A stretch of DNA of 21,418 bases, from the IMG/VR virus record IMGVR_UViG_3300046467_000846, positions 1 to 21,418 of that record; one strand, given 5' to 3'. The notes under the pieces were generated by a model that was not told the DNA's origin, ran no database searches, and was given only the letters and a program-made list of their open reading frames with translations. Positions 2,368 through 17,854 of the stretch are shown here, piece by piece. Every line of letters starts with the position of its first letter. Within the stretch, counting starts at the first letter, position 1. Origin of the DNA: a virus. The position numbers and the translations under genes are program-made.

Positions 2368-2378
2368 ATCTATTTCTC

Positions 2379-2657
2379 CTAGCTATCAGCCTTTTCGGGT
2401 CTAGTATACAGCCAATCCCAGAGCTTGTACCACATTAAGTTCCACGATATCCGGCGTGTATGGCAAGGGTCGCAGGTTCTCAAATCCAGAAGCCGGGTGA
2501 TCCTAAACAGTACATCGCCGGGCCCATAAAGGGGTACGTCGCACCGCCACAGGAACCCCGACCCTTCGGGCTGGTTGCAGCGAATGCATACGCCCCGCTC
2601 GTACTGGCAGGGCAGTGGCTCTCGCGTTCTTTCCCAGGCTCTAGACCACCAGCTCAC
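2379..2657 (-). CDS. Small Trp- and Cys-containing hypothetical protein
   Basis: This 92-residue protein is unusually rich in Trp (about eight residues) and has two CxxC pairs: C-I-R-C near residue 25 and C-D-P-C-H near residue 63, plus single Cys nearby. That spacing could bind one zinc ion in a ribbon-like fold, which is inference. It probably starts with GTG at 2657, overlapping the stop of the preceding gene as GTGA, so translation is likely coupled. Its own stop overlaps the ribosome binding site of the next gene. The position between collar-like receptor-binding proteins and the large Gly-rich protein suggests a virion or assembly role, but I recognise no family. It could be a small chaperone for its neighbours. 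Confidence 0.6.
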   Translation of the reverse strand: MSWWSRAWERTREPLPCQYERGVCIRCNQPEGSGFLWRCDVPLYGPGDVLFRITRLLDLRTCDPCHTRRISWNLMWYKLWDWLYTRPEKADS

Positions 2658-3181
2658 GGCATTCTTTCGATAGGGATAAGGGATACGTTCTCAGGATCTG
2701 GTATCGCATGCGAGTGAGATCCCTCACTCGACACCACCGCATCGTGAACATGGGGTGATCCAAACGTCACGATGGGTCGCCCCTCGCTGTACTCATCTTC
2801 GGTGTAAGACACTGACGGGGGGCGTATCAGGTGATCGACGGTGATATCCGCACCACTTGTAGGAATAATGTGATCGTGAGGTGATGCGTCACTTGTTCTG
2901 GATTTCACCGCCGTGTCGCCCACGTCACCATCCGTATGGGTAGCCATAATGTAGTAGCCGATCAGGTTGTACCCCGACCCGCCCTCCGAAACAGCGTTAT
3001 CCGTACCGTTGGCAATTACCCAGTGCCTGGGAACAGCACCCACACGACCACTCACCCACCACACAATGCTCCCCACCGGAAGTGCGTTCTGGTCAGGATC
3101 GTACTCCTTTGCCAGCATAGACAGTGCCTGGGAAACTTGCGTTTCGTCGTATAGTCGTAATGGGTATTGTGATTTTTCCAC
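2654..3181 (-). CDS. Tail-collar-like fibre protein, paralogue 2
   Basis: This 175-residue protein has the layout of phage tail-collar / short tail-fibre tip domains. About 36 residues of N-terminus are followed by P-V-G-S-I-V-W-W, then R-H-W-V-I-A-N-G-T and G-S-G-Y-N-L, then His-X-His pairs (HDH, HVH, HSH), and the end L-I-P-I-E-R. These match position by position the protein encoded just upstream (W-W-T-G, G-W-A-L-M-N-G, G-S-G-Y-N-L, L-I-P-I-E-K). The His pairs are typical of intertwined trimeric fibre tips that coordinate metal. The likely start is GTG at 3181, three bases after the upstream stop, with only a weak ribosome binding site. The role is probably host recognition at the tail. 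Confidence is good for the fold family and low for the exact receptor role. Confidence 0.72.
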   Translation of the reverse strand: MEKSQYPLRLYDETQVSQALSMLAKEYDPDQNALPVGSIVWWVSGRVGAVPRHWVIANGTDNAVSEGGSGYNLIGYYIMATHTDGDVGDTAVKSRTSDASPHDHIIPTSGADITVDHLIRPPSVSYTEDEYSEGRPIVTFGSPHVHDAVVSSEGSHSHAIPDPENVSLIPIERMP

Positions 3182-3183
3182 AA

Positions 3184-3753
3184 CTACGTCACTTGATAGA
3201 TTAGTTTTTCAATGGGTATCAGCTTCATGTGGGCGGGGTTCCCGGCATCGTGGTCGTGATCACCGCCAGCGACACTCGCTGTGTGCGTATGGGGGTCAGC
3301 CGCCACAGCCAGTGCCTCGCCAGCGTATGTGGTGTCGTTGTACGAAGAGGAGTACACTGACTGCCCAGACTCGACACCTGTCGTCAAGTGGTCGATATCA
3401 CCCCTCACCGCGACATATTCTTCTTCGATTATTACCTCATGTGTATGACCGTCTCGACTGGTCTTGCCACCACCGGCAGCCGTGCCAGCGCCTGACGCTG
3501 CCGCCAAAACAAATTTGTCAACTAGGTTGTACCCTGAGCCACCGTTGCCCGTTGCATTCGCAACGCCGTTCATGAGTGCCCAACCTGACGGGATATCAGC
3601 TACCGCGCCGGTCCACCACACCATAATCCCAGCCGGGGTTGGTGGCCCCCTGGAGGCTATGTCTGCCAACGCCTGCTCGAACGCCTGACCCGTTCCCGTA
3701 CAGTCGGTCATCGGGAATGCGCTCTGCGCAACTATCTTACTGTTAATAGCCAA
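3184..3753 (-). CDS. Tail-collar-like fibre protein, paralogue 1
   Basis: The protein has about 189 residues if it starts at the TTG at 3753, which lies one base after the upstream stop and has a GGGGG tract five bases before it. An ATG at 3843 is possible but would overlap the conserved end of the upstream gene by 89 bases. An ATG at 3711 has a poor ribosome site. The TTG start gives an N-terminus nearly as long as that of the downstream paralogue. Features: P-A-G-I-M-V-W-W, I-P-S-G-W-A-L-M-N-G, G-S-G-Y-N-L-V-D-K-F-V-L-A, then H-T-H, H-T-H-T and H-D-H-D, ending L-I-P-I-E-K-L. This is the tail-collar / fibre-tip pattern, so it is probably a receptor-binding or fibre protein. Confidence 0.72.
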   Translation of the reverse strand: MAINSKIVAQSAFPMTDCTGTGQAFEQALADIASRGPPTPAGIMVWWTGAVADIPSGWALMNGVANATGNGGSGYNLVDKFVLAAASGAGTAAGGGKTSRDGHTHEVIIEEEYVAVRGDIDHLTTGVESGQSVYSSSYNDTTYAGEALAVAADPHTHTASVAGGDHDHDAGNPAHMKLIPIEKLIYQVT

Positions 3754-3754
3754 A

Positions 3755-5362
3755 CTAGCCCCCGCTGTACCGCACTTTTGTGCGGGGATGTACGATTGTT
3801 GTAATGTTTTCCACCGACCAGTTCTTCTTAGCGGCACCGGCAACCCTCAACACGTAGTAAGGGTCTCGCACTCGGATGCGAGTTGTGTTGTTGTGATATC
3901 GCCAAATTCCAGTGTCTCGCGATGTAGCATCAAACGCCTGTTCTGCCGATTGCCCTGTACGCACTGACCATGTGACGTTATCTCCGGTTCCGTTAGCGAT
4001 GCTCGACGCCATAACGGAGTTGATCTGGTCGATTGACCCGTTCAGAAATCCGCCACTCTTTGATCCGGCAGTAGCCAGGGGTCCATAGTCGATATAGCTT
4101 TCGGCTTCACACGATATTCGTTCGTCGAACTGTTTGATAATGGGCGGCCCACCCATGCCAATTAACACATCCGACACATTGTTGTTAGCCGATCCCTCGT
4201 AGATGCCAGCACATATGGGTGACGTTGATAGCGTCATGGGCCAATACGTCGGAGCGCCGGTTTTGTCGTTGTTCATTGTCTGGTTCACATCCAGCCAATA
4301 GTGCGTCTTCGCCGGGTTGGTGCCAATCGGAGTGATGTACAGATGAATACCACGGTGCCTGCCGTCGTATTCCATGGAGACATGGTACTCGTCATTCTTG
4401 ATAAACATCAGGTCGTCGGGCACCTTCTCGCGGCTCACAGAAATAGGAGTACTGCCGCACCCTGGGGGCATAGCACACACGCCTTCCTGTGAAAGCCAGA
4501 AGAGCCACCCGTCAGCTGTTCGGCACCAAGCATTGCGGGATACGCAACCTATCCGCTGGGATAAGTTATCCAGCCTGCCGCCATACCCTGGGTCTGCGCG
4601 CAACGACCATGTGCTGTTTGTGCAGAAGAATATGACGCACTGATCTCCATGCGCCGCAGCGGCACGAATCGGCTCGCCTAACTGACCCATGTTCGTGTTC
4701 TGGGAGAAGATAGCCGAATCCGCTCCGGTTCCCGAGTAGTTAAAGTTAAGCGGTTCGCTGGTCTTCGACATGTACCATCGCTGCGGGTTGGCGCTGTCGT
4801 CGCATACCACCAACCTGTCGTGATAACGAAAGACAATCTTGCAATTACGTGGTGCATCAGCGGAGTCATCAAGAGTATAGCTTGGATTTACATCTACTGT
4901 GTTGTCAGCGGGGTTGAATATCTTTAAGGGATGAGTCGGGCCACCATCGGCTATGTACAGCTTCTGGTGCATATCGGCAGCGGTCAAACTATCTGTACCC
5001 GCCAGAAGGGGGGTGGTGTTTTCGCTTGTCACTTTCGACCACTGTGCCGTTTCATCATCCTCCTTGTACCAGATGGCTTGCCCGACAGCCGCGACGAGCT
5101 TTGTTTTCCAAGTGCCCGAATCAACATATCGCACTTGGGATATCACTCGTACATTGTCAGTCGTGCCCCACGACACCCCAACATTCAGGATTCCATGGGT
5201 TGATAAACCGGGTCGAGCGCCTATTCTTTCCCGACTCTCCAGCGTGGTGTCTGGTCGCACGTTACTGCAATCAGGCGTAGTGAACGGTGGGTGCGCCTGA
5301 TAAGACTGGCGGCGGTACAAACCTCCCATGGGCGGCTGCAAGCTCATGATCTGTTTCGCCAT
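3755..5362 (-). CDS. Tail nozzle / DNA-stabilisation-like protein (P22 gp10 / T7 gp12-like)
   Basis: This 535-residue protein begins MAKQIMSLQPPMGG. The ATG at 5362 has AAGG six bases upstream. The frame stays open to 5503, but that extension has no family character and is rejected. Recognisable features are the N-terminal block P-D-C-S-N-V-R-P-D ... R-P-G-L, typical of podovirus tail hub proteins; a central F-R-Y-H-D-R-L-V-V; W-Y-M-S-K-T-S-E-P-L-N-F; and R-I-G-C-V-S-R-N-A-W ... G-W-L-F-W-L-S-Q-E-G-V, reading like beta-propeller blades. Such proteins plug the portal-adaptor channel and form the distal tail tube. It sits after the adaptor candidate and before the fibre genes, as expected. The assignment rests on remembered motif patterns and not on a search. 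Confidence 0.62.
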   Translation of the reverse strand: MAKQIMSLQPPMGGLYRRQSYQAHPPFTTPDCSNVRPDTTLESRERIGARPGLSTHGILNVGVSWGTTDNVRVISQVRYVDSGTWKTKLVAAVGQAIWYKEDDETAQWSKVTSENTTPLLAGTDSLTAADMHQKLYIADGGPTHPLKIFNPADNTVDVNPSYTLDDSADAPRNCKIVFRYHDRLVVCDDSANPQRWYMSKTSEPLNFNYSGTGADSAIFSQNTNMGQLGEPIRAAAAHGDQCVIFFCTNSTWSLRADPGYGGRLDNLSQRIGCVSRNAWCRTADGWLFWLSQEGVCAMPPGCGSTPISVSREKVPDDLMFIKNDEYHVSMEYDGRHRGIHLYITPIGTNPAKTHYWLDVNQTMNNDKTGAPTYWPMTLSTSPICAGIYEGSANNNVSDVLIGMGGPPIIKQFDERISCEAESYIDYGPLATAGSKSGGFLNGSIDQINSVMASSIANGTGDNVTWSVRTGQSAEQAFDATSRDTGIWRYHNNTTRIRVRDPYYVLRVAGAAKKNWSVENITTIVHPRTKVRYSGG

Positions 5363-5414
5363 CGCGCACCTTAGTAGAGAGAGAAACCATATCCGCTGTT
5401 GTACAGCCAGCTGC

Positions 5415-5678
5415 TTATTCTTCATCTCCGTCTGGCAGCGACCAAACCGGAGTAGCCATAATTGCCAGGATCTCTTCGTTGTTATATTCCTGATCTCCTT
5501 CAACGATTGCAGCCACGCTTGGCGGCATACCCCCTACATATTTAAGAACCACCAATAGCCCGCTCAGGGATCTCCTTACCGTCGAGGGTCCAGTTTCCAT
5601 GACCTCGCTGAAGTCGATGTTATTGATTGCGACGTGCGGGATAATAACGTAGCGCCTGTCGGATACGTTGTGACTCAT
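5415..5678 (-). CDS. Small hypothetical protein of the tail cluster
   Basis: This 87-residue protein (start MSHNVSDRRYVIIPHVAI) overlaps the upstream LamG-like gene by four bases (ATGA), so translation is probably coupled. It has a beta-like N-terminus, a short hydrophobic stretch G-L-L-V-V-L-K-Y-V-G-G too short for a membrane segment, and an acidic end (D-G-D-E-E). No family is recognised. The 52 bases between its stop and the next start contain only a pyrimidine-rich tract and that gene's ribosome binding site. It may be a tail assembly chaperone or minor structural protein, which is inference from position. Confidence 0.6.
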   Translation of the reverse strand: MSHNVSDRRYVIIPHVAINNIDFSEVMETGPSTVRRSLSGLLVVLKYVGGMPPSVAAIVEGDQEYNNEEILAIMATPVWSLPDGDEE

Positions 5679-6472
5679 GATTTACCAAACCTAGTCTTTG
5701 CCGCATTGTAATTGGTAGTAATATTCGCTGACGACAATGCCGTATTGTAAATCTGAACTGACGCGATTTGGCCCTGGAACTCGTTGGTTGGGTTCCCGCC
5801 AGTTGCACTACCGTTGCTGTACGTTGTTCCTCCAAGTTGGAGCGGCAGCGCGTTCCCTATGTCGTCGATGGTGTCTGTGCCGGATGTCACATTCGCGTTT
5901 TCAGTAGTATCGACATATACCGTTAGCTTCGTGCCCGCGTCCCAAACCATCGAATACAGATACCACGCATCAAACGCATATTCGGTCCCGGAATTGTTGA
6001 TCTTGACCGACTGGGCAGCATCGGCAACACCCGTCCCCTGCACGTACCAGCCAGTCCCCTTCTTGATCCGCATATTCCATCCGGCATAACTATTCCATGC
6101 GCCTGCGCCAAACGTGTTAACTACTCTTTGCACCCCCGTCAGGGAAGTTGTGGCTGGCTTGAACCACACGCACACGGTCATATCGCCATCGTCAGCCGGA
6201 TTGAAAGCGTCGTTGTTTGGCACCGACACAATATCATCTACGCCGTCAAATATAAGACTCCCCCCATTGGCGGTGTCGAAGTTGTCGGTACAGGAAATCG
6301 TTCCCATCAAGCCACCGATTACATCCTGCCAAGTAGTCGCTGTCTCGGGAGGGCCTGGGTATGTCGCACCCGCGCCCGTATCCCAGCAAGCAACCAGACC
6401 GGAATTAACTCCGGCGGAGCAAAGCCCCCCTTCAACGCCCAATCCGGCACCTGTAGTAGTAATCGTTGTCAT
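5675..6472 (-). CDS. LamG / concanavalin A-like lectin-domain structural protein
   Basis: This 265-residue protein is beta-rich with many Thr, Gly, Asn and Asp. It follows the LamG (Laminin_G_3) pattern: L-I-F-D-G-V-D-D-I-V near residue 74, M-T-V-C-V-W-F-K-P near 98, W-Y-L-Y-S-M-V-W-D near 170, L-T-V-Y-V-D near 183, and the closing block F-Q-G-Q-I-A-S-V-Q-I-Y-N-T-A-L-S followed by N-Y-N-A near residues 231-258. Such domains bind carbohydrate and in phages occur on capsid or tail surfaces. A single-domain protein fits this length. The start follows the preceding stop by one base with a weak GAAGAAAT ribosome site. A role in attachment to host or environmental glycans is inference. Confidence 0.78.
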   Translation of the reverse strand: MTTITTTGAGLGVEGGLCSAGVNSGLVACWDTGAGATYPGPPETATTWQDVIGGLMGTISCTDNFDTANGGSLIFDGVDDIVSVPNNDAFNPADDGDMTVCVWFKPATTSLTGVQRVVNTFGAGAWNSYAGWNMRIKKGTGWYVQGTGVADAAQSVKINNSGTEYAFDAWYLYSMVWDAGTKLTVYVDTTENANVTSGTDTIDDIGNALPLQLGGTTYSNGSATGGNPTNEFQGQIASVQIYNTALSSANITTNYNAAKTRFGKS

Positions 6473-6473
6473 G

Positions 6474-6806
6474 TTACGTTGTTATTTCTTCAAATTCCTG
6501 ATAGGCCATGTGTCCATCCACGTCCTCGGTACAAATTATTCGTAGCTCCTTGTTGACCGTTGGCGTTTCAAATTGACCGATATATGTAGCGTTTGGCGAC
6601 AGGCCCCCCTTCGCTGCCAATTGCATGTTTCCCGTTATCGCAGTGCCATCCTCGTCAACAAACTGGATTCCTGTTGCAGCATTAGCAACGACGGTGTACC
6701 CAAGTACCCTAAATCTCCTGCCAGCTACAGCGGTTATTATTGCCGTTGTGCCACTTGCCACGTTGATATCGTCATAAATAATAGGATTGTCTTCGCCTTT
6801 AGCCAT
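6474..6806 (-). CDS. Small beta-rich structural protein
   Basis: This 110-residue protein starts MAKGEDNPIIYDDINVA at the ATG at 6806, where GGAG stands six bases upstream and overlaps the end of the preceding gene. A longer frame to 6902 lies inside that gene and is rejected. The pattern V-A-S-G-T-T-A-I-I ... G-I-Q-F-V-D-E-D-G-T-A-I-T-G ... A-A-K-G-G-L-S ... Y-I-G-Q-F-E-T ... L-R-I-I-C ... V-D-G-H-M-A-Y resembles small phage virion proteins of a jelly-roll or Ig-like type that I recall from marine phages. A decoration or tail-associated role is plausible, but its position among neck genes does not decide between them. Confidence 0.62.
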   Translation of the reverse strand: MAKGEDNPIIYDDINVASGTTAIITAVAGRRFRVLGYTVVANAATGIQFVDEDGTAITGNMQLAAKGGLSPNATYIGQFETPTVNKELRIICTEDVDGHMAYQEFEEITT

Positions 6807-6807
6807 G

Positions 6808-8091
6808 TTAATCTCCAAAGTATTCGACTGAATTGTACGTGGCTGGTTTGTAGTAACGGTTGGCTTGCCCACGCGAGTCAGACTTGTCGCCGTTGTAGCC
6901 AAATTTTGTCGGTGTAAACTGTACCCGGTCGCGATGCACGCTTGCGCGTAATCGTTCCATGAACGTCTGCCAGTGAATCCCCTTCTTGTCTTCGACCTTC
7001 AACTCGGCAGCAGCGAGGCAGGAAGCGAGGATTGTCTCTCCATGCGCCATGCCGCCCATCGGGTAGTCATTCATCGACGCAGTATCCTGAAGCTCGTTGT
7101 GCGTAGCGTGCATTGTGAAGGTGCCGTTTGGGCCGGGCCAAATATGCAACTCATACCGCAATCCTCGTACTGCATTGCCCGACGTTCTAAACGCCCTGGT
7201 GTCGCTCGCGCGGATAGGAACTTCTGCCGCATACAACGGGCGTGCGGATGGGCTGATCTGACCCAGGTTCTGCTGTCGCAGGGATAGAATCCGGTTGATA
7301 CTTGTACGCTCAATCGAATAGTACGAGTTGTCAGATTCAGAGAAACTGATGTCGCTAGTGAATCCGGCATGCTCATCCGGCAATCGGAAGATGGCGTTGG
7401 TTGTAATTGAATACACACCAGCCTTTCCTGACGCATTTCCAGCCACCAGGATTGCAGCGGGAGAGCTGATATACCCCACGATCTCGAATTCAACGTCGTC
7501 GTTGGCTACGAAGGTTTGCCCTACCATCTCCGGTCGGAACACTTGCGATCCCGCATTGATGGTGACCGTGGTGTAATCCAGGGTGCTGTTATGCGCCGAA
7601 CACGTTACTGTTTCACCTGTCGTCTCGGAGTAGTCGCCAAAAATAGAAAATGTGAATTCCGGCTCAAGGAAACTCCAGTTATGGGCGACGTTACCCTCGC
7701 CGGGAATTGGCGGAGGGTAATAGAACTGGCGAAGACCTGAATCGATGCAGGCACCGATGTCATCTTCTTCCTCTTGGCTCCATGGCGTGAGCAACCACTC
7801 AGTGGCGTCGGTCAGCGTCGTAGACGTATCGGATACCAACAGCACGGTATCGCTGGTACGCGATGTGACATTGGCGGTAGTCCACGACTCGGTACTGCTG
7901 GTGTACCAGTGCAGCCTTCCTGCCGTTGCCCACTCGGGCCACGACCTGGAAGTAGTAGCCGAGTCAAGGGTGACGTGGTTGCCACTCTTGTCGATCTGAC
8001 CATGCCTGCGAAAGCTGCGACGGTATCCCAGGGCGTATGCAATCTCGGATCGCAACTCTGAGAAGTCTAAACTGAGGGTGGACTCTGCCAT
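6808..8091 (-). CDS. Putative head-tail adaptor (neck) protein
   Basis: This 427-residue protein starts L-S-L-D-F-S-E-L-R-S-E-I-A-Y-A-L-G-Y near residue 6. A second helical block, D-D-I-G-A-C-I-D-S-G-L-R-Q-F-Y-Y-P-P, lies near residue 110. I associate this pair with head-tail adaptor proteins of aquatic podoviruses, in which helices pack against the portal. Between and after these blocks lie beta-rich Thr/Ser segments. The end carries a basic G-Q-A-N-R-Y-Y-K-P block. The start is one base after the previous stop, with GGGG seven bases upstream. Gene order capsid, decoration, adaptor, tail nozzle supports the call. The inserted beta region is larger than in P22 gp4-type adaptors, so an alternative is a tail tube A-type protein. 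Confidence 0.55.
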   Translation of the reverse strand: MAESTLSLDFSELRSEIAYALGYRRSFRRHGQIDKSGNHVTLDSATTSRSWPEWATAGRLHWYTSSTESWTTANVTSRTSDTVLLVSDTSTTLTDATEWLLTPWSQEEEDDIGACIDSGLRQFYYPPPIPGEGNVAHNWSFLEPEFTFSIFGDYSETTGETVTCSAHNSTLDYTTVTINAGSQVFRPEMVGQTFVANDDVEFEIVGYISSPAAILVAGNASGKAGVYSITTNAIFRLPDEHAGFTSDISFSESDNSYYSIERTSINRILSLRQQNLGQISPSARPLYAAEVPIRASDTRAFRTSGNAVRGLRYELHIWPGPNGTFTMHATHNELQDTASMNDYPMGGMAHGETILASCLAAAELKVEDKKGIHWQTFMERLRASVHRDRVQFTPTKFGYNGDKSDSRGQANRYYKPATYNSVEYFGD

Positions 8092-9626: not shown

Positions 9627-10667
9627 CTACGTTCCAGTGTCGGTTGCAATCACCCAGTTACGTCGTCGATCAACGCACAAATAGTTGTACGTTAAATCTA
9701 CGAAGACCTGGAACACATTATGCTGGGAGGGAGCCGGTTTGGCTTCGCTCTCACGCAAGTAATCGCCCGTCAAACAAACCGGGTAGAAAGTCGAGTGGTC
9801 AATTCCGTACACAGGATCTTTCGTATCGCTGTCTAACTTAGGCACCCACACGACTGGATGATTTCGGAACGTAATTGTTCCATCCATGCTCGCTAAGTCA
9901 CGACCTAAGTTTTCGTTTTGCGCTTCACCTAGCTCTTCCAGACCGGAAATGGTCGTCTCGTTTACGTACAAGCGATACCGCTGACCTTGTGTGCCACGGT
10001 AATCCTGAATCGTAATAGGAGACTTAAAACCAGTCTTTCGATGCGCGGTGCGCAACTTTTTAATGAGATCCGCTTTCGACACATTCGTGTACTGCGCGGT
10101 GTAATTTTTGAATGTCGGGCTGTCTGCCATCTCGACACCCGCCACGCTTGTACCGAAGGCTGTACTACCGTTAAATCCGGTAGTGTTGTTTTTCACAATC
10201 CAGTACGGAAGCCCGTAAGGAATCGTTTTCTGCGTAGACGCCGTAGGTGACGACCACGCCCTGTCTTCTAACTCTTCCACGAGGCTGATCAGACAATCTG
10301 CGCGACGCGGTTGAATCACGTTGAAGATCATCGACTCGCCTTTATTCATCAGCGTTTCCTGATAAATAAACGCCCACGAGTTCTGGGCATGAACCCAATT
10401 GACCTGCAACTGATCAATCACATCGGTGATGTTAACCGTATCGGTTTCCATCAGGCCAACGTGCTTGGCAGTGTTAGACAACTTGTTCATCAACGTGCGT
10501 TGGATTCCAATTCCTGAGTCAAACGCTACTTTATCCCGTTTGAACCAATGGCTGAATACTTCGTAATCAACCAAATTTTGAGCAATCTGTTGAAAGCGTA
10601 ATCTACCGAGTTCTCGTAACGTACCGGATACAAGATCGGCAATGTCTGTAGCAACTAAGTCAGCCAT
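9627..10667 (-). CDS. Major capsid protein
   Basis: This 346-residue protein has a helical N-terminus (L-V-S-G-T-L-R-E-L-G-R-L-R-F), then a mixed alpha/beta body. The conserved C-terminal block is H-N-V-F-Q-V-F-V-D-L-T-Y-N-Y-L-C and R-R-R-N-W-V-I-A-T, typical of HK97-fold capsid proteins that lack a cleaved delta domain. A strong AAAGGA sits seven bases before the ATG. It follows a Gln-rich scaffold gene and is followed by a strong terminator, which fits the most highly expressed virion gene. Exact family placement would need a profile search. The alternative, a minor capsid protein, is unlikely because no other capsid candidate is present. Confidence 0.88.
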   Translation of the reverse strand: MADLVATDIADLVSGTLRELGRLRFQQIAQNLVDYEVFSHWFKRDKVAFDSGIGIQRTLMNKLSNTAKHVGLMETDTVNITDVIDQLQVNWVHAQNSWAFIYQETLMNKGESMIFNVIQPRRADCLISLVEELEDRAWSSPTASTQKTIPYGLPYWIVKNNTTGFNGSTAFGTSVAGVEMADSPTFKNYTAQYTNVSKADLIKKLRTAHRKTGFKSPITIQDYRGTQGQRYRLYVNETTISGLEELGEAQNENLGRDLASMDGTITFRNHPVVWVPKLDSDTKDPVYGIDHSTFYPVCLTGDYLRESEAKPAPSQHNVFQVFVDLTYNYLCVDRRRNWVIATDTGT

Positions 10668-10703: not shown

Positions 10704-11798
10704 CTACAGGTCACCGTATGTACGACTCGACATGGATGTTGGCTCCATGCCGTGTTCGCGATACCAGCCATTTGCAAAGTTAGCTGCGTTATCTTCGGGT
10801 GTGCCACCTCGGCTATTTGCAGGGGCGTTAGGTCGGCGCATTGCCTGCTGCCGCCTCTGCTGTGCTTGCTGGCGTACCTGATGCCTTGCGTTTGCATCCA
10901 TTTCGTTAGTGTGTCTACTACGTAAAACTCTCTGCTGTATCTGTTGCAGGTCGGGTTGCTGCCCCGAACTCCTCGAATACTGCAGAAACATACCTACTTC
11001 GTTTGCAAACTCCATTCGCTTGGCAAACTCTGGGCTTTGGGGATCCATCTCCGAAGCTCTACCAGACCCATACGATTCCTTTAGTGGGCCCTCAATCGTG
11101 TCGAAGAAACCATCCATTGCCGCATCGTATTGCTGCTGCTGCTGGTGGTTGCTAGAGCTGGTCATTTGACCCATCTCGTTGATCATCTGCCCGACAACAC
11201 CCTCTAATTGGCTGATGCTGTCGGCAGCTTGCGCAAACTGCGAATCGTAATGATTAGAGACCTTCCCGAACGCATCGACGATTTCCGGCTCGAACTCATT
11301 GCCTTCACCGAAAGGTTGTTCCAGCGTTTCTGGGTGAAACCCCTGATACATGTCATTATTCGCGTGTGGATCAAGAGGATCCTGCGCTGGCGCTTGTTGC
11401 TGCGCCTGCTGCTGCTGTTGGGCGGCTTGCCATTGTTGCTGCTGGGCAGCACTGTACTGATTGGTAAACCGTCTATCCATTGCGCCGAGCATAGAACCTA
11501 GCCGCTCGTCATCAATGTTGCTCAACTCGTCAGGAGAGAATCCGTAAACCTGTTGAGCCTCTTTGTGCAGATCCGACAAACCGGAATAGTCATCAGTTTG
11601 TTCGCCCTGCTGCTGCTGCGCCGCCCCAACGGAAAAGTCATCGTTAGAGCCAGTATACGGCGCAGTATTTCCATTAGGAGAACCGTCGCCCCCATCGGGC
11701 ATAATCTCGGTTCCCATTGATTGTTCGGTTGCTGTCTGTACGACCCCCGTTGCTAAATCTGTATCACCATCTGCAAAACTGTCGATAGGATCCGGCAT
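10704..11798 (-). CDS. Scaffold protein (Gln-rich)
   Basis: This 364-residue protein is acidic at the N-terminus, very rich in Gln in the middle (Q tracts near residues 60 and 118-140), helical around residues 180-300, and basic at the end (R-R-Q-Q-A-M-R-R-P). It lies directly upstream of the capsid gene. Scaffolds typically have this low-complexity, helical, charged composition with a basic C-terminus that contacts the capsid protein. The ATG at 11798 follows an in-frame TAG immediately, so no longer start exists. The ribosome site is weak (GGCAGCATTAG). Sixty bases separate it from the upstream gene and show no clear promoter. The two CAG-type Gln tracts are prone to length change. Confidence 0.78.
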   Translation of the reverse strand: MPDPIDSFADGDTDLATGVVQTATEQSMGTEIMPDGGDGSPNGNTAPYTGSNDDFSVGAAQQQQGEQTDDYSGLSDLHKEAQQVYGFSPDELSNIDDERLGSMLGAMDRRFTNQYSAAQQQQWQAAQQQQQAQQQAPAQDPLDPHANNDMYQGFHPETLEQPFGEGNEFEPEIVDAFGKVSNHYDSQFAQAADSISQLEGVVGQMINEMGQMTSSSNHQQQQQYDAAMDGFFDTIEGPLKESYGSGRASEMDPQSPEFAKRMEFANEVGMFLQYSRSSGQQPDLQQIQQRVLRSRHTNEMDANARHQVRQQAQQRRQQAMRRPNAPANSRGGTPEDNAANFANGWYREHGMEPTSMSSRTYGDL

Positions 11799-11858: not shown

Positions 11859-12101
11859 CTAGTTGACCGTCAATGGGTCGATGTTGCTGTCGGTAGCTGA
11901 TCCCAAGTTGATGTAGATATGGGTGTTGGTAGAGTCGTCAGAGGCACCCGAGTTGAAGATCAGGCATCCCTTGGCGTATCCGACAGTTGTGTCGGCTGGC
12001 ACGCCAGAACTGGTAATATCCTCGATCACGATCAACTTGTTACCCGACCCATCTGTGGCGATAACGCCCGTAGCATCATGAAGTGCGTGTCTCTGTGACA
12101 T
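11859..12101 (-). CDS. Small beta-type structural protein
   Basis: This 80-residue protein starts MSQRHALHDATGVIATDGSG and contains T-T-V-G-Y-A-K-G-C-L-I-F-N-S-G and H-I-Y-I-N-L-G-S-A-T-D. The pattern G-Y-A-x-G-x-x-[IF] followed by Y-x-N-x-G-[ST]-A is one I associate with small virion proteins beside scaffold and capsid genes. A strong AAGGAG ribosome site lies five bases before the ATG. It lies 60 bases upstream of the scaffold gene. A head decoration or assembly role is inference. Confidence 0.65.
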   Translation of the reverse strand: MSQRHALHDATGVIATDGSGNKLIVIEDITSSGVPADTTVGYAKGCLIFNSGASDDSTNTHIYINLGSATDSNIDPLTVN

Positions 12102-12118: not shown

Positions 12119-12454
12119 TTAGCTAAATAATCCTTGTGACTCGCCGCCCTCAATGGAATGATTCCTCTGAGGATCGCCGTAGCCGCCATTTCTATCGTAT
12201 AGCCCCACCGCTTCGCAATGTTCTTTTCTGTGTTGGGCGCTCGTAAACACAACGCGACCATCGTTTGCTACTTCCGTTTTCAATCCAAGATCGGCAAACT
12301 TCCGGCGCGCTTCGCCTACTTGTGACGGCGCAACACCGGCAGCATCCGACACGATGGGCCACTTCGCTTTTGTTTTGCGAACAGCCTTCTTTTTTACCTC
12401 AACTACTTCGTCGAGCTTCTTGTCGTAACGATATGTTTTTGATCTTGGCGGCAT
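12119..12454 (-). CDS. Small basic phage protein of the head cluster
   Basis: This 111-residue protein has a Lys/Arg-rich N-terminus (K-K-K-A-V-R-K-T-K-A-K-W). A helix-turn-helix-like stretch follows, P-I-V-S-D-A-A-G-V-A-P-S-Q-V-G-E-A-R-R-K-F, then D-G-R-V-V-F-T-S-A-Q-H-R-K and a Gly-rich tail with G-G-Y-G-D. Similar short proteins (I-x-S-D-A-x-G-V ... H-R-K ... G-x-x-D-R-x-G-G-Y-G-D) occur before scaffold genes in other phages as I recall; their function is unknown to me. DNA binding is possible from the basic and HTH-like part. An AAAGG site lies six bases before the ATG. Confidence 0.62.
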   Translation of the reverse strand: MPPRSKTYRYDKKLDEVVEVKKKAVRKTKAKWPIVSDAAGVAPSQVGEARRKFADLGLKTEVANDGRVVFTSAQHRKEHCEAVGLYDRNGGYGDPQRNHSIEGGESQGLFS

Positions 12455-12480: not shown

Positions 12481-12987
12481 TTAATAATGAGGAGATAAAG
12501 GATGCCGGGGCTGCCATGCCGCAAGACCCCCCACGGGTCTTCCACCCCCGAATCTTCCCCTGCCGTGCATCGTTCCTGGCGTAATGGGCGAGGAATGCAT
12601 AAACAGGTTAGATAACCCCGCACTGCCCAGACTGCCAACCCTTCCCCCCATTACCCCTGGTCTTATCGAAGACCCCCCCAGGCGATTCCCAAGCCCACCA
12701 AACCCACCAAAATTCGTCAGGCTGTTGTTCATGTTGTGAAGACTGTACAGGCTGGGGGTTGCGTTGAAACCTTTCATACCCTGGCTCATTGATTGACGCC
12801 ACGGATGAGCTTCCATAACCGAATTTTTCCAAGCTACCTGCCCTGGCGTAGGCTCGGTTACGTAGCCGTATCGCCCCATCTGGGGCCACCCCGGCGTCAT
12901 TTCTGGGCTAGCTGCTGACCCCCGTTGGTTTCCAGGCTGGGCATACATGCCGGCGTAGGGGCTAGGATATCCACTTTGATTTGGCAT
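12481..12987 (-). CDS. SPITPGTMGG-family protein 3 (short, degenerate repeats)
   Basis: This 168-residue protein is rich in Pro, Gly, Met and Ser and probably disordered. It carries two clear copies of the shared motif, S-S-I-R-P-G-V-M-G-G near residue 106 and S-P-I-T-P-G-T-M-H-G near 132, plus two weaker ones (E-M-T-P-G-W-P-Q-M-G near 29 and E-P-T-P-G-Q near 45). The last part, R-G-R-F-G-G-G-R-P-V-G-G, is Arg/Gly-rich. The ribosome site GGGAGG six bases before the ATG is formed by the final Met-Gly-Gly codons of the upstream family member. It is the last of three consecutive family genes. No known function; see findings. Confidence 0.72.
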   Translation of the reverse strand: MPNQSGYPSPYAGMYAQPGNQRGSAASPEMTPGWPQMGRYGYVTEPTPGQVAWKNSVMEAHPWRQSMSQGMKGFNATPSLYSLHNMNNSLTNFGGFGGLGNRLGGSSIRPGVMGGRVGSLGSAGLSNLFMHSSPITPGTMHGRGRFGGGRPVGGLAAWQPRHPLSPHY

Positions 12988-12990
12988 TAC

Positions 12991-13776
12991 TTACCCTCCC
13001 ATCATTCCTGGTATGATCGGTGACGGCGGCGCGATGCGCCCTCCCATGAATCCTGGTGTGATCGGTGACCCACCGAAGAATCCCGGTGGTCGAGGCTGAT
13101 TCCATGGAGCGCCTGGGCGAAAACCGGGTCGATTCCATGGAGCATCCCATTGTTGCTCGGGGCCTGGAGTCCAATAGGGGCTAAATTGTTTTCGCCCACC
13201 CATCATTCCCGGCGTCATGGGGCTTCCCCCCCCAAACCAGCCTGGGTGCTGACCCCTGAACCCTCCCCAATTCTCATGCTGTTGTTGCCATGGCATAAAA
13301 GACCCTCCGGTCTGTGGTTCACCCCCCATACCTCCCATCATTCCCGGTGTGATCGGAGACGGCTGAGCTGCTCCCATGCCACCCATCGTTCCGGGGGTAA
13401 TAGGTGAAAACCCCCCCCTCGAAGGTTCGCTTGGCATTCCGCCAGGAGAAATTGGTGATACTGGCGCTGGTCCTACACCACCACCTCCTAGTACCCCTGG
13501 AGTAATTGGAGACGGTTGAGACATCGCTCCTACAGCAGCGTCGAATCTATTCCCGAGACCCCGCCTAAAGCTTGTATCACCCATCGTTCCCGGTGCAATC
13601 GGAGAGGCGAATGGTGGTGCTGCCCCACCACCACCCAACACTCCAGGTGTGATCGGGGATCGTCGCGCTCCCGTAAGCCTCCTGGGGGGGCCACCCATCC
13701 TTCCTGCTGAAATAGGTGAAGCGGAGAAGTTAGCGGGGGCTCCCATGCCACCCATCGTTCCGGGGGTAATAGGCAT
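12991..13776 (-). CDS. SPITPGTMGG-family protein 2 (11 repeats)
   Basis: This 261-residue protein is built almost wholly from 11 copies of the motif [SM]-P-I-[TSA]-P-G-x-[ML]-G-G, spaced by Gly/Ala/Pro/Gln linkers. It begins with MPITPGTMGG as its first ten residues and ends with P-I-I-P-G-M-M-G-G as its last residues, so the repeat frames the whole protein. Linkers around residues 155-220 are Trp- and Gln-rich. No membrane segment or signal is seen. The start ATG is two bases after the upstream stop, with AAGGA eight bases before it. Likely an extended, turn-rich disordered protein of the virion or of assembly; the function is unknown to me. Confidence 0.78.
   Translation of the reverse strand: MPITPGTMGGMGAPANFSASPISAGRMGGPPRRLTGARRSPITPGVLGGGGAAPPFASPIAPGTMGDTSFRRGLGNRFDAAVGAMSQPSPITPGVLGGGGVGPAPVSPISPGGMPSEPSRGGFSPITPGTMGGMGAAQPSPITPGMMGGMGGEPQTGGSFMPWQQQHENWGGFRGQHPGWFGGGSPMTPGMMGGRKQFSPYWTPGPEQQWDAPWNRPGFRPGAPWNQPRPPGFFGGSPITPGFMGGRIAPPSPIIPGMMGG
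12991..13776 (-). repeat. Dispersed coding repeat, SPITPGTMGG units across family protein 2
   Basis: Eleven roughly 30-base units encode the decapeptide. On the plus strand they read as variants of CCCATCGTTCCGGGGGTAAT, for example at 13381, 13580, 13640 and 13751. Unit spacing is irregular (roughly 40-170 bases). Codon choice varies while Pro-Ile, Pro-Gly and Gly-Gly stay constant, pointing to selection on the peptide. Confidence 0.88.
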
Positions 13777-13778
13777 AA

Positions 13779-16049
13779 TTAAAATCCTTTGCGTTGTTGG
13801 CTGCCGTAAACTGGTCTAGTGCCGTTTGGGCGATGCATACTAAACATCCCCCGATAATTTCCTCCACCCATCCTGCCAGGGGTGATCGGTGAGGGCGACC
13901 CCGGCATACTTGCCACGGATCCGAAAGATCCTGGCGCAATCTGATTCTGTGGATACGTTCCTTGACGGCTAAACATGCCCTGGTGATTCCATTGTTCTTG
14001 CGGCGCACCGCCCATCCTTACGGTTATCGGAGACGGTTGAGACGTTCCCCCCCCCATTATTCCTGGTGTGATCGGTGACGGTTGAGCTGCTCCCATGCCG
14101 CCCATCGTTCCCGGCGTGATCGGAGACGGTTGAGACGTTCCACCGCCGCCCATCGTTCCCGGTGTGATCGGAGACGGTTGAGATGCCCCGTCTCCGCCCA
14201 TCGTTCCCGGCGTAATAGGTGACGGGGCACCGAAGAACGGGGTCTGCCCGCCGCCTAATGTTCCTGGCGTAATGGGAGACGGGGAACCGAATTGCGTTCC
14301 CCTCCAATTATCCGGTGTTTGTGTTTGGGTAAACTGTGCAGCTGTTCCGTCTCCGCCCATTGTTCCTGGGGTGATCTGGCCCGACCCGGCAGCAACCGCA
14401 GAATCCCCAGCCCCCATTGTTCCTGGGGTCATCGGGGATGGAGAACCGTATTGCGCTCCCCTCCAAGCGTTTGGATTCTGTGCCAAGTTGAATTGTGCCG
14501 CTGTTCCAGCACTGCCCAGGGCTCCTGGGGTTATCTGACCCGTTCCCGTAACAGGAGCGGGGGTTGCTGCCGCAGCTGCCGCATCAGGTGCAGCCGCTGC
14601 CTGTTGGGCACCTTGGGAACCTTGGGCACCTATCGTTGGGTCGTATGTTCCGTAAGCTCCACCCTGCGCGCCGGGGCCAAGCACGGGTTTGCCTTGTTTG
14701 TATGTTTGCCACGCATTGTTTCTAGCTGTGTTGTACGCCTCCTGACTCATGCCCACCCGCTCACCGAATGTCTGGTCACCTCTCCATCCACTTGGGTCTT
14801 GAGCCATGGCGTATTGCTCTGGCGAAACTCCCGTGAAGTCTTGGAAGCCTGACATCATTTGTTGATTGAAATTGTTTACAGCTGTGTTGTACGCCTCCTG
14901 ACTCATGCCGTATTGTTCGAGGAATGTCTGACCACCCGCCGCTGGCTCGGCTGCTTGACCAACCACTGGCTCGGCTGCTTGATCAACCACTGGATCGGAT
15001 GCTCTTGCGACTGGCGTAATCTGACTTATAGCGTTTTCGTCGACCCATTCCCCACCCCCTGGGTGGCCCTGGAATACCAATCCAGAGTTCGCAGCAGGCG
15101 TTAAGGGATTCACCATATTCCAGTATGCGTCGTAAGCATTGGGAGTCTGCTGGGCTACAAGGCTCGACCACGGGTCGTTTGCCATCATCTGCAGCCCGCC
15201 CAGCCAAGAATTCGATATCGGAGATCCCCTGAGCCACGAAGCGGGCCCACCACCCCACATCGGGTTCGGCTGCAACGCTTGTGAATACAATCGAGACCAA
15301 CTGTCTTTGACTATATTGGGCCACTCGTCTTCTACGGGGCCGGGTGTTGGGGGAAAGTCAGTTGGGCCTGGGCCAGGAGGTAAAGGATAAACCGTACCAC
15401 CACCGCCAGTACCGCCGGGGCCGTCATCGCCGCCGCCCATAGGCCACCAATGAGGAGGCAGGTTTTCACCAGTGTCGATGTCAGGAAGGTCGTCACCACC
15501 ACCAACGTAACCACCTTCACCTGTGTACCCTTCTTCCCAGGGCCACTTTCCCCCCCCGTGCCGCCAAATAATTTCCTGTAATTGGGGGGGGTAGTAGCTC
15601 ATCACCTCTGGGGTCAGTTCTGCTATGTTTATTCCTTCTCCACCGTAAGCTGAAGTACCAGGAACGATAGGCACCAGTTGTTCATGTTCGGGATTCCCCC
15701 CCTCTTCTTTAGTCAGCTCTTCGTGATCATATGATGATGTTGTATGACCCTGCAGCAGATTCTGTACGTAAGAAGGGTAATAGCTGGCAACTTCTTCCTT
15801 TAACGGCACCGGAGCGTTCCCACCGGGCCCATAGCCATAGTGATCGTAGACTTCGAGCGGGTTTTCCCCGTACCCGTACCAGGGTATGCCCATAAAGCCA
15901 GGCGCAGTATCTGGGATCGCAAACTGACCGCCCCCTGGGTTATACCCGCCAGCTGCGCCGATGCCGCCTGGGCCTGCGACCCACGTACCATCCACCATCG
16001 AGCCGGGGCGTATCGGCGTATATGCCCCAGGAAACACAGGTTGCACCAT
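13779..16049 (-). CDS. SPITPGTMGG-family protein 1 (large, Gly/Pro-rich)
   Basis: This 756-residue protein starts at ATG 16049, which shares its A with the portal stop (TGATG) and has GGAGG six bases upstream; a GTG one codon earlier is less likely. Residues 1-170 are Gly/Pro/Tyr-rich with loose motif relatives (P-I-R-P-G-S-M near 12, A-P-G-F-M-G near 50, P-I-V-P-G-T near 127). Residues of about 170-350 are acidic and Gly-rich, then Trp-rich. Residues 370-460 hold a duplicated helix G-M-S-Q-E-A-Y-N-T-A. Residues of about 500-750 contain 11 decapeptide copies, one shortened (S-P-I-T-V-R-M-G-G). The region after a portal gene often holds a protease or internal head protein, and no Ser/His/Asp protease motif is visible here. 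Likely a disordered virion or assembly protein. Confidence 0.78.
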   Translation of the reverse strand: MVQPVFPGAYTPIRPGSMVDGTWVAGPGGIGAAGGYNPGGGQFAIPDTAPGFMGIPWYGYGENPLEVYDHYGYGPGGNAPVPLKEEVASYYPSYVQNLLQGHTTSSYDHEELTKEEGGNPEHEQLVPIVPGTSAYGGEGINIAELTPEVMSYYPPQLQEIIWRHGGGKWPWEEGYTGEGGYVGGGDDLPDIDTGENLPPHWWPMGGGDDGPGGTGGGGTVYPLPPGPGPTDFPPTPGPVEDEWPNIVKDSWSRLYSQALQPNPMWGGGPASWLRGSPISNSWLGGLQMMANDPWSSLVAQQTPNAYDAYWNMVNPLTPAANSGLVFQGHPGGGEWVDENAISQITPVARASDPVVDQAAEPVVGQAAEPAAGGQTFLEQYGMSQEAYNTAVNNFNQQMMSGFQDFTGVSPEQYAMAQDPSGWRGDQTFGERVGMSQEAYNTARNNAWQTYKQGKPVLGPGAQGGAYGTYDPTIGAQGSQGAQQAAAAPDAAAAAATPAPVTGTGQITPGALGSAGTAAQFNLAQNPNAWRGAQYGSPSPMTPGTMGAGDSAVAAGSGQITPGTMGGDGTAAQFTQTQTPDNWRGTQFGSPSPITPGTLGGGQTPFFGAPSPITPGTMGGDGASQPSPITPGTMGGGGTSQPSPITPGTMGGMGAAQPSPITPGIMGGGTSQPSPITVRMGGAPQEQWNHQGMFSRQGTYPQNQIAPGSFGSVASMPGSPSPITPGRMGGGNYRGMFSMHRPNGTRPVYGSQQRKGF
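13858..14550 (-). repeat. Dispersed coding repeat, SPITPGTMGG units in family protein 1
   Basis: Eleven copies lie in about 690 bases. Four consecutive ones (about 14055-14225) are separated only by short A-Q-P or T-S-Q-P linkers and are nearly identical in DNA (plus-strand CCCATCGTTCCCGG then GATCGGAGACGG), so they are recent tandem duplicates. One copy near 14010-14037 has lost a codon in frame and no longer contains Pro-Gly. Confidence 0.88.
14724..14909 (-). repeat. 30-bp perfect direct repeat encoding GMSQEAYNTA
   Basis: Positions 14724-14753 and 14880-14909 are identical over 30 bases and lie 156 bases apart inside family protein 1. The duplicated helix has the context F-L-E-Q-Y-G-M-S-Q-E-A-Y-N-T-A in one copy and F-G-E-R-V-G-M-S-Q-E-A-Y-N-T-A in the other. 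A segmental duplication of about 52 codons followed by divergence explains it. Confidence 0.85.
14944..14991 (-). repeat. 24-bp tandem duplication (VVDQAAEP / VVGQAAEP)
   Basis: Two adjacent 24-base units (14944-14967 and 14968-14991) differ at one base. They encode the octapeptides V-V-D-Q-A-A-E-P and V-V-G-Q-A-A-E-P in a low-complexity linker of family protein 1. Confidence 0.85.
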
Positions 16050-17854
16050 CACATGCCTCCCATCTGCTGCGGCGGTGCGCCTACGGGCTGGCTGCCTGGG
16101 GGATTAGCGGTCTGTGTTCCGGCACCTGACATGAGCGATTGCATCTGCTGCTGCTCCTGTGCTTCCCTAGTAGGTGGGCCAGCTCGGTTGACTCGCTCCG
16201 ATGTAGTATTTGTCGCCTGCGGCGATTTCATCGCGACTGACTGAGATGGTTCACCCACAGGTTGATTCATCGGGTCGAGGTGCAGTATCTCTTCCAGCTC
16301 AGGCAGGTTGGTGTATTTCGCCATGGTTCTGGCGAACTGCTGTTGGTCAACTTGCATTCCCATCGGGATAACCAACTCTGTAAGAATCTTATTCAGCTTG
16401 GCGAGTCTCTCTTCGGGTGTTGACCCACGCAGGGAATAAGGCTCGATGTCGATGTTGTATTGCTGGAAGTCACCTTCGCGTTGCTCGGGGGTCCAAGTGA
16501 AGGGCAGTTCGATGGAGCTTCCTATTCGCTTGACTAACGGCAGCTCGATATACGGGTCTTCCCACATGTATCTGGCTAAATCACCCATGATGCCTTTATG
16601 GAACCGCGACACCTCCTGCCGCATGTCATCGATCATGCGGTTAGCCGACTGGCTCAACATCTGATCTTGCCCGAGCGTGCTGGTCTGCGCCCCCAGCCCA
16701 CCGATGGCGTCGATGTTGCCCATCAGGTAACCGAGCTGGTTACGTGTATTAATACTGAAGGCGTGTGTTTGCTGGTCGATTCCGCCATGCCGGGTGACCT
16801 GCATTCCCTGAGGATTCTGCACGCTGACGATCTCACCGTCGTTAGCATCACGCAGGCTTTCTCCATCCTTACCGGATGCCGACTGCACAAGCATAACTTC
16901 CTTCTGTCTCTCTGCCTGCCGGATCAGCTTGCGCCACATGCGGTTGACGGCATCGTTCAGATCGGTCCACTGCATGACGGGTGCAATTGGCATGGGTGTA
17001 CCGGGCACAGGCTGGTATCGCAACAGATGATAGGGCCCGTGTTCGGGGCCCTGCCACTCGCGAACCTGCAGGGGTGTTCCAGAATCCTGATCTGTGGCAC
17101 TCATCGTGAGCAGTAGATTCTGGCGTGGCAGCCACAGATCCCAGACCTCTACAAAATCCATGAAGCCGTCATGGAATGCTTCGGATCCCTGCACAATTGA
17201 TTCAGCACGGTGATCGGCACCTGTACCGTGCATACTGAACTGCGATTTCTGTTGTGGTGCTAGTCTCTCACGCGCCGACTTGTTGAACTCTTTGTTATCC
17301 TTAGCGAACTCGTAGGGCAGCCGGTACTTGTTTCCAGCGAAGGTTGCCGCCTCGTAACTGGTGGCTGACATATCCATCATCCAGTCGTCGAGTAAAACCA
17401 CATCCGCAAACGGCTGACCGGCATCATGTTTGTAGCCCAGCTCATCTCCTACATCCCTGACCTCTAGACCAACCTTTATAATCCCCATAGAGAACATGGA
17501 TTCTATGAGAGCTAGTTTTGCGGTTCCGCCGTAGTTGATTTCCGTAAGTAGATGATTGAGCGCCAGCTCCAGCTCGTAAGCGGATGCCTTCAGGTTCGGG
17601 AAATCCGTAAGCACCAGTGCCTTGGGATTCTGAGGAACCAGCTGACGCTGATAGATAGAGACAGCCATCCAGATCATGTTGACTGGAACCTTGGCTGCTG
17701 CGCCGCCCGAATCGGAGAAGTTCTTTCCGACGTACTGCTTGAGAGCCTCCAGACGATTCTGCCGGAACGGGCGTAGCTTCTTATTGCTCCACGTCATCGC
17801 TTGACGGAGCCGACCCATTTCGCGTTCGTTTAGAGGGTTTGTCTGGGCGACCAT
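16049..17854 (-). CDS. Portal protein
   Basis: This 601-residue protein forms the dodecameric ring at the head vertex through which DNA passes. Visible portal features: an N-terminal basic helix (K-K-L-R-P-F-R-Q-N-R), F-S-M-G-I-I-K-V-G-L-E near residue 123, V-V-L-L-D-D-W-M-M-D near 151, a long stem-like helix around W-T-D-L-N-D-A-V-N-R-M-W-R-K-L near 292, and a Met/Gln-rich helical C-terminus near 395-430. The length suits podovirus portals. The last 60 residues are Pro/Gln/Gly-rich and end Q-Q-M-G-G-M; those GGAGG-containing codons are the ribosome site of the next gene. The ATG at 17854 has a poor site (AAGAATTAG) and lies 14 bases after a terminator T-tract. Order terminase, portal, scaffold, capsid supports the call. 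Confidence 0.92.
   Translation of the reverse strand: MVAQTNPLNEREMGRLRQAMTWSNKKLRPFRQNRLEALKQYVGKNFSDSGGAAAKVPVNMIWMAVSIYQRQLVPQNPKALVLTDFPNLKASAYELELALNHLLTEINYGGTAKLALIESMFSMGIIKVGLEVRDVGDELGYKHDAGQPFADVVLLDDWMMDMSATSYEAATFAGNKYRLPYEFAKDNKEFNKSARERLAPQQKSQFSMHGTGADHRAESIVQGSEAFHDGFMDFVEVWDLWLPRQNLLLTMSATDQDSGTPLQVREWQGPEHGPYHLLRYQPVPGTPMPIAPVMQWTDLNDAVNRMWRKLIRQAERQKEVMLVQSASGKDGESLRDANDGEIVSVQNPQGMQVTRHGGIDQQTHAFSINTRNQLGYLMGNIDAIGGLGAQTSTLGQDQMLSQSANRMIDDMRQEVSRFHKGIMGDLARYMWEDPYIELPLVKRIGSSIELPFTWTPEQREGDFQQYNIDIEPYSLRGSTPEERLAKLNKILTELVIPMGMQVDQQQFARTMAKYTNLPELEEILHLDPMNQPVGEPSQSVAMKSPQATNTTSERVNRAGPPTREAQEQQQMQSLMSGAGTQTANPPGSQPVGAPPQQMGGM
16056..16060 (-). promoter_or_regulatory. Ribosome binding site for SPITPGTMGG-family protein 1, inside portal gene
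   Basis: GGAGG on the minus strand, six bases before the ATG at 16049. It is encoded by the final Met-Gly-Gly codons of the portal and decides the start of the overlapping downstream gene. Confidence 0.8.

Follow-up and report, generated by a model that had tools for sequence, protein, structure and literature searches.

A decapeptide repeat in three consecutive head-module genes of a tailed phage points to possible optional components of the virus head

Introduction

Several optional or repetitive proteins of virus heads have been described. In phage SPP1, gp7 is a minor capsid protein bound to the portal; its gene lies directly behind the portal gene and before the scaffold gene, and the protein is dispensable for assembly (PMC6316719). 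The scaffold-capsid module of SPP1 also encodes gp12, a collagen-like, non-essential, repetitive capsid protein (PMC6316719). Protein P30 of PRD1, which serves as a tape measure or cement, is proline-rich, mostly disordered, and extended (PMC7602432). Uncharged Pro/Gly-rich chains with many P-Xn-G segments and nonpolar side chains meet published heuristics for LCST behavior (PMC7794388).

Here, we analyze a whole virus record of 21,418 bases (hereafter referred to as the window), which is classed as linear and is probably a fragment. Three consecutive genes in the window, encoding proteins of 756, 261, and 168 aa, share a decapeptide repeat. These proteins resemble SPP1 gp7 in the place of their genes behind the portal, but their sequences are unrelated to gp7, gp7 is not a shared-repeat trio, and the three proteins have no Mu F-type Pfam match. 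They resemble gp12 in repetitiveness, whereas gp12 is made of collagen triplets and is encoded between scaffold and capsid. Like P30, they are proline-rich; P30, however, comes from another virus realm and capsid fold, and the present chains are Pro/Gly-rich with a common decapeptide. With elastin-like and resilin-like polypeptides, they have in common hydrophobic-x-Pro-Gly repeats, a high density of P-Xn-G, low charge, and nonpolar side chains, although elastin-like polypeptides consist of VPGxG units and the core found here is I-T-P-G-x-M-G-G.

Results

Gene content and lineage of the window

The main genes all lie on the minus strand, in the order Holliday-junction resolvase (a phrog_1770 match), small-terminase-position gene, large terminase (phrog_5989, E 3e-7), short gene, portal, the three repeat genes, g111, an 80-aa gene, scaffold candidate, major capsid protein, and tail-type genes (Table 1). 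The AF2 model of the capsid protein, built with 21 aligned relatives, has a pLDDT of 75.5, and its 349 Foldseek matches to PDB at E <= 0.001 (best E 3.7e-10) comprise phage capsids and encapsulins. With an HK97-fold capsid and adjoining portal and terminase genes, the window belongs to a tailed phage (Caudoviricetes). The portal has no match in Pfam or PHROGs, and the portal and scaffold are candidate identities, assigned mostly from gene order. The earlier note had placed the three repeat genes between portal and scaffold in one operon; this location is correct, with the addition that g111 and the 80-aa gene also intervene before the scaffold.

Short motifs (RxYERVxRxGP ... LMSG/LMGG) are kept in the variable P/G/Q-rich tail formed by the C-terminal 60 residues of the portal, in the window and in L009-L113 too. 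On the tail side, the 595-aa protein has a repeat of its own, (Q)ALM[GA]G[AV], in about six copies and without a family match, and a concanavalin A-like lectin domain (Laminin_G_3, E 3e-16) marks a candidate adhesin.

Searching with a capsid profile, we recovered the lineage among viral contigs and from nine contigs of the genome collection. The latter derive from MAGs of planctomycetes and verrucomicrobia, from the MAG of one unclassified bacterium, and from the isolate Cerasicoccus frondis, in which the capsid match lies inside a 272-kb contig and the repeat genes are missing. Planctomycete- or verrucomicrobia-type bacteria as hosts are a lead only, because MAG contigs can be mis-binned viruses. 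The capsid relatives within long bacterial contigs (L113, from C. frondis, and L107) suggest integrated prophages of the lineage.

The portal gene and the 756-aa gene overlap in the sequence ATGTGATGG. Gaps of 2 nt and 3 nt separate the 756-aa gene from g261 and g261 from g168, and a plausible ribosome-binding site precedes each of the three repeat genes. As g168 follows the TAA stop of g261 in the same frame, stop-codon readthrough was a candidate; the separate ribosome-binding site of g168 led us to set it aside. Internal starts via GGA-NNN-ATG in the motif were also set aside; the spacing is apparently too short.

Table 1. Coordinates of features in the window and of SPGAMGG[RK]-repeat proteins in other contigs
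Feature	Position	Strand	Remarks
595-aa tail-side protein	580-2367	-	own repeat
Lectin domain (Laminin_G_3)	5675-6472	-	candidate adhesin
Major capsid protein, HK97 fold	9627..10667	-	phrog_9953; AF2 and Foldseek
Scaffold candidate	10704..11798	-	acidic, Gln-rich, directly before capsid
80-aa gene	11859-12101		
g111, small conserved protein	12119..12454	-	downstream edge of variable slot
g168, 168-aa protein gene	12481..12987	-	2 strict copies: 12643-12672, 12562-12591
g261, 261-aa protein gene	12991..13776	-	9 strict copies; P+G 41%
756-aa P/G-rich protein gene (g757/g756)	13779..16049	-	ATG at 16049; GTG 3 nt upstream (16052) also possible
Motif-bearing C-terminal region of 756-aa protein	13863..14540	-	10 strict copies, GQITPGALGS ... 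SPITPGRMGG
48-bp tandem array within this motif region	14026-14225		
WRG element span, 756-aa gene	14286..14819	-	three copies: 14763-14819, 14445-14498, 14286-14339
GMSQEAYNTAxNN span, 756-aa gene	14715..14915	-	two copies: 14871-14915, 14715-14759
SYYPxxxQxxxxxH-like element span, 756-aa gene	15546..15785	-	two copies: 15732-15785, 15546-15602
Portal protein (candidate)	16049..17854	-	conserved synteny and lineage profile; P/G/M/Q-rich C-tail; overlaps start of 756-aa gene
SPGAMGG[RK]-repeat protein, L221	3-671		
SPGAMGG[RK]-repeat protein, L187	180-4679		
SPGAMGG[RK]-repeat protein, L139	650-2131		
SPGAMGG[RK]-repeat protein, L149	7092-8522		

The decapeptide repeat

The consensus of the repeat is S-P-I-T-P-G-x-M-G-G, with position 7 freely variable. 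A strict pattern, [IM][TSAIR]PGx[MLF][GH], finds 10, 9, and 2 copies in the 756-, 261-, and 168-aa proteins, respectively. Compared to this total of 21, about 0.02 copies are expected, as 5000 shuffles per protein gave means of 0.005, 0.017, and 0.002 and maxima of 1, 2, and 1. The looser anchor PGx[MLF] marks 24 sites, and one further copy opens the 261-aa protein, which begins with MPITPGTMGG and ends with SPIIPGMMGG. The DNA pattern for PITPGxMGG has nine exact matches in the window versus none in 100 shuffles. These results bear out a repeat common to three consecutive genes, as the earlier note had described it, and its counts (11, 11, and 2-4) come close to ours. Its claim that the motif is confined to these genes also stands, since the motif is absent from all nine of the other window genes checked.

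The ten strict copies in the 756-aa protein fall at residues 504-729. This protein carries further repeats: a WRG element, xQ[FY]..(A/T)Q.P..WRG.Q.FG, three times, and GMSQEAYNTAxNN and a helix-like SYYP element twice each (Table 1). Given these elements besides the decapeptide, we regard the protein as a P/G-rich chain strung with short motifs.

For the analysis of selection, only the core PGx[MLF] served to collect copies, and the columns outside this anchor were scored across the 24 sites in the three genes. The unanchored motif columns have a pN of 0.33 at a pS of 0.75, compared to a pN of 0.68 at the same pS for the flanking residues. Ser, Pro, Ile, Thr, and both Gly residues are kept despite synonymous saturation. 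A young slippage array would be expected to show a low pS, and recent slippage as the origin of the repeat is ruled out by this saturation; only the 48-bp array looks younger among the motif copies. With saturated synonymous sites, a conserved peptide, and random flanks, the decapeptide looks like an old linear motif under selection.

The Gly codon that follows Pro in the motif (12643-14540) is GGA in 18 of 21 copies, compared to 35 of 168 other Gly codons in the three genes (p = 7e-9, with copies treated as unrelated). The motif's other synonymous sites vary.

Composition and homology searches

Pro and Gly make up 29-41% of the three repeat proteins, which contain no Cys, 1-7 Lys, and 9-11% charged residues overall. 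They have 8-13 P-Xn-G segments per 100 residues versus about 1-2 in the portal, scaffold, capsid, and terminase of the window. VPGxG units are absent, and collagen triplets do not extend beyond runs of 3-4 GXY. AF2 modeling of the 261-aa protein from its single sequence, without an alignment, yielded a mean pLDDT of 48, with one short helix and the rest coil; by mean hydropathy, the repeat proteins fall just across the Uversky line, on the side of folded proteins. Composition and this low-confidence coil prediction suggest that the three proteins are probably intrinsically disordered, consistent with the disordered chains originally proposed. By the published P-Xn-G heuristics, such repeat proteins would be expected to undergo LCST-type coacervation.

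None of the three proteins matched Pfam, PHROGs, or NCBIfam at lax cut-offs, and no Mu F-type, enzymatic, Ig-like, or other decoration domain was found in these databases, nor any fibre, lectin, adhesin, or collagen domain in domain searches. The 261-aa protein has no match among PDB sequences or, by tblastn, among plasmids; tblastn against cultured phages gave none for the 756- and 261-aa proteins. Searching viral contigs for loci related to each of the three proteins returned none, and the exact DNA pattern for PITPGxMGG matched no other IMG/VR contig. In the literature, we found no report of elastin-like or condensate-forming head proteins in phages, and no relevant paper contains the motif strings. 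The earlier note had taken the proteins for an apparently novel phage protein family, with no described phage protein known to carry the repeat. The searches agree with the second part of this claim; "family" is better replaced by "lineage-specific occupant of a variable slot", because related phages have either an empty slot or unrelated P/G-rich proteins at this position.

The slot between portal and g111

In most loci of the lineage, portal, g111, scaffold, and capsid are consecutive, the distance from portal to g111 usually being 0-300 bases; of 106 loci, 98 carry a conserved g111 between portal and scaffold. The slot is empty in L009, L010, L011, L012, and L032, whose capsids are 69-79% identical to that of the window and in which g111 abuts or nearly abuts the portal. 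P/G-rich slot ORFs of at least 100 aa occur in only 8 of the 94 loci with both portal and g111 visible: the window, L041, and L062, and, separately, L026, L029, L031, L038, and L040. Another such ORF is present in L028, a locus visible on its g111 side only.

On a portal tree built with a quick method, L041 and L062 are the sisters of the window (100% SH-aLRT), and their slots hold one and two P/G-rich proteins, respectively. The other five loci form a distant clade with two P/G-rich slot proteins each, and the tree forces at least two changes in this trait. Shuffle-controlled comparison of the window's proteins with those in the slots of relatives gave no significant similarity (Z below 2), and homology between them was rejected once composition was controlled. 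The proteins of these seven relatives occupy the same slot and have the same composition as those of the window but lack the SPITPGxMGG repeat array. The slot recurs across lineages with composition, not sequence, in common. In L014, the large terminase is placed between portal and g111, and the slot therefore also accepts rearrangements.

PGxMGG repeats in other phages

A looser DNA pattern of two nearby PGxMGG units matched at least 119 stretches, few of which have repeated motifs in an ORF among the matches listed. Within that set, SPGAMGG[RK] repeats occur in four uncultured phages of other lineages (L139, L149, L187, and L221), with PGxMGG present 2-5 times. In L221, five tandem copies are followed by a Hint domain. 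The repeat protein of L187 and L221 is encoded directly upstream of a scaffold-position phrog_13678 gene and a phrog_267 capsid gene, and that of L149 directly upstream of the large terminase (phrog_38), with the portal (phrog_1216) further on. The cultured relatives of L187 (Roseobacter phages CRP-207 and CRP-603 and a spring-water podovirus) have a variable protein in the portal-to-scaffold slot, without the motif.

The SPGAMGG[RK] proteins resemble those of the window in PGxMGG repeats and head-module place and differ from them in lineage and flanking residues. The likeness is partly by construction, and the PGxMGG core is no evidence of kinship because it was the search term; that these proteins, too, are encoded in packaging or head modules is suggestive only. 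We think it quite improbable that PGxMGG turns act as a general head recruitment motif, akin to encapsulation peptides, by which optional disordered proteins (the three in the window and those of L187/L221 and L139/L149) would dock tandem copies at a site conserved on the portal, scaffold, or capsid.

Discussion

We hypothesize that the three genes encode accessory, disordered, multivalent head-module proteins that share a binding partner and form an optional component of the virion, a reading to which we give a probability of about one half. It rests on the location of the genes, their optional presence, a composition resembling that of disordered chains, and a multivalent motif under selection, which together favour an optional part of the virus head. 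The decapeptide would be a short linear motif displayed many times, probably forming a beta-turn at Pro-Gly with Ile and Met on either side. Through it, the three chains may have one common partner: one of the head proteins (portal, scaffold, or capsid), the other chains of the trio, or both. Synthesized beside the portal and scaffold, they would be recruited to the growing or finished head by numerous weak interactions and travel within the virion or on its surface. The disorder of the chains, their incorporation into the head, and the shared partner are inferred, and the chains may lie inside or outside the head. The beta-turn-rich structure, the binding to capsid, portal, or DNA, the condensates, and the internal core proposed in the earlier note are likewise hypotheses. 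On this account, the proteins would be analogous to the optional head proteins SPP1 gp7 and gp12 and PRD1 P30 and homologous to none that we found.

The proteins may instead be portal-associated internal or ejected proteins, loaded via the portal or scaffold in assembly and delivered with the DNA in the manner of SPP1 gp7. The slot's place immediately after the portal gene, which overlaps the start codon of the 756-aa gene, fits this role, as does the presence of a variable protein between the portal and scaffold-position genes in CRP-207 and CRP-603 and of a PGxMGG-repeat protein directly upstream of the latter gene in the related contigs L187 and L221. However, the comparison with L187 and L221 is biased, as it began from a PGxMGG search, the proteins of the cultured CRP phages lack the motif, and the three window proteins have no enzymatic or Mu F-type domain. 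We consider delivery with the DNA possible, if unlikely.

It is rather unlikely that the chains decorate the outside of the capsid or form head fibres, coating the head and acting in stability or adhesion like SPP1 gp12 or PRD1 P30. An optional gene in the head operon with a repetitive, fast-changing composition would suit such a coat, and the non-essential, repetitive gp12 and the proline-rich, mostly disordered P30 offer precedents. Yet the longest GXY run is 3-4, no decoration domain or trimerisation coiled coil was seen, and the slot adjoins the portal rather than the capsid.

A condensate former, in which elastin-like chains phase-separate and concentrate head components at the assembly site without themselves becoming part of the virion, seems doubtful. 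The P-Xn-G content conforms to the published heuristics for LCST behavior (PMC7794388), and three chains with one common motif would suit a co-condensing set. This case is purely compositional, however; phage head proteins of this kind are absent from the literature we found, and close relatives assemble without any repeat proteins.

We consider neutral low-complexity expansion, that is, functionless tandem duplication by slippage, very improbable. The 48-bp array and the absence of slot genes from close relatives would be in line with it, but peptide conservation at saturated synonymous sites, over 24 sites in three genes with random flanks, argues against it, as do separate genes with a ribosome-binding site each. 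Membership in a tail fibre or adhesin class, the case that the earlier note raised against its own proposal, has next to no likelihood: repetitive proteins are common among phage fibres, but these genes belong to the packaging/head module, a long way from the tail genes (580-8091), and no fibre, lectin, or collagen domain was found in their products.

The accessory head-module reading concerns a short peptide motif that appears to have been selected across three phage genes after DNA similarity had worn away, in a lineage whose slot is filled by unrelated P/G-rich, disordered-type proteins in different phages. The analysis also flags an under-described phage group, with planctomycete- and verrucomicrobia-type bacteria as the lead for its hosts. 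To our knowledge, the recruitment of disordered accessory proteins to heads has been little studied in bacteriophages. If the three proteins are head components, the motif would provide a testable handle on how such proteins are recruited to viral heads.
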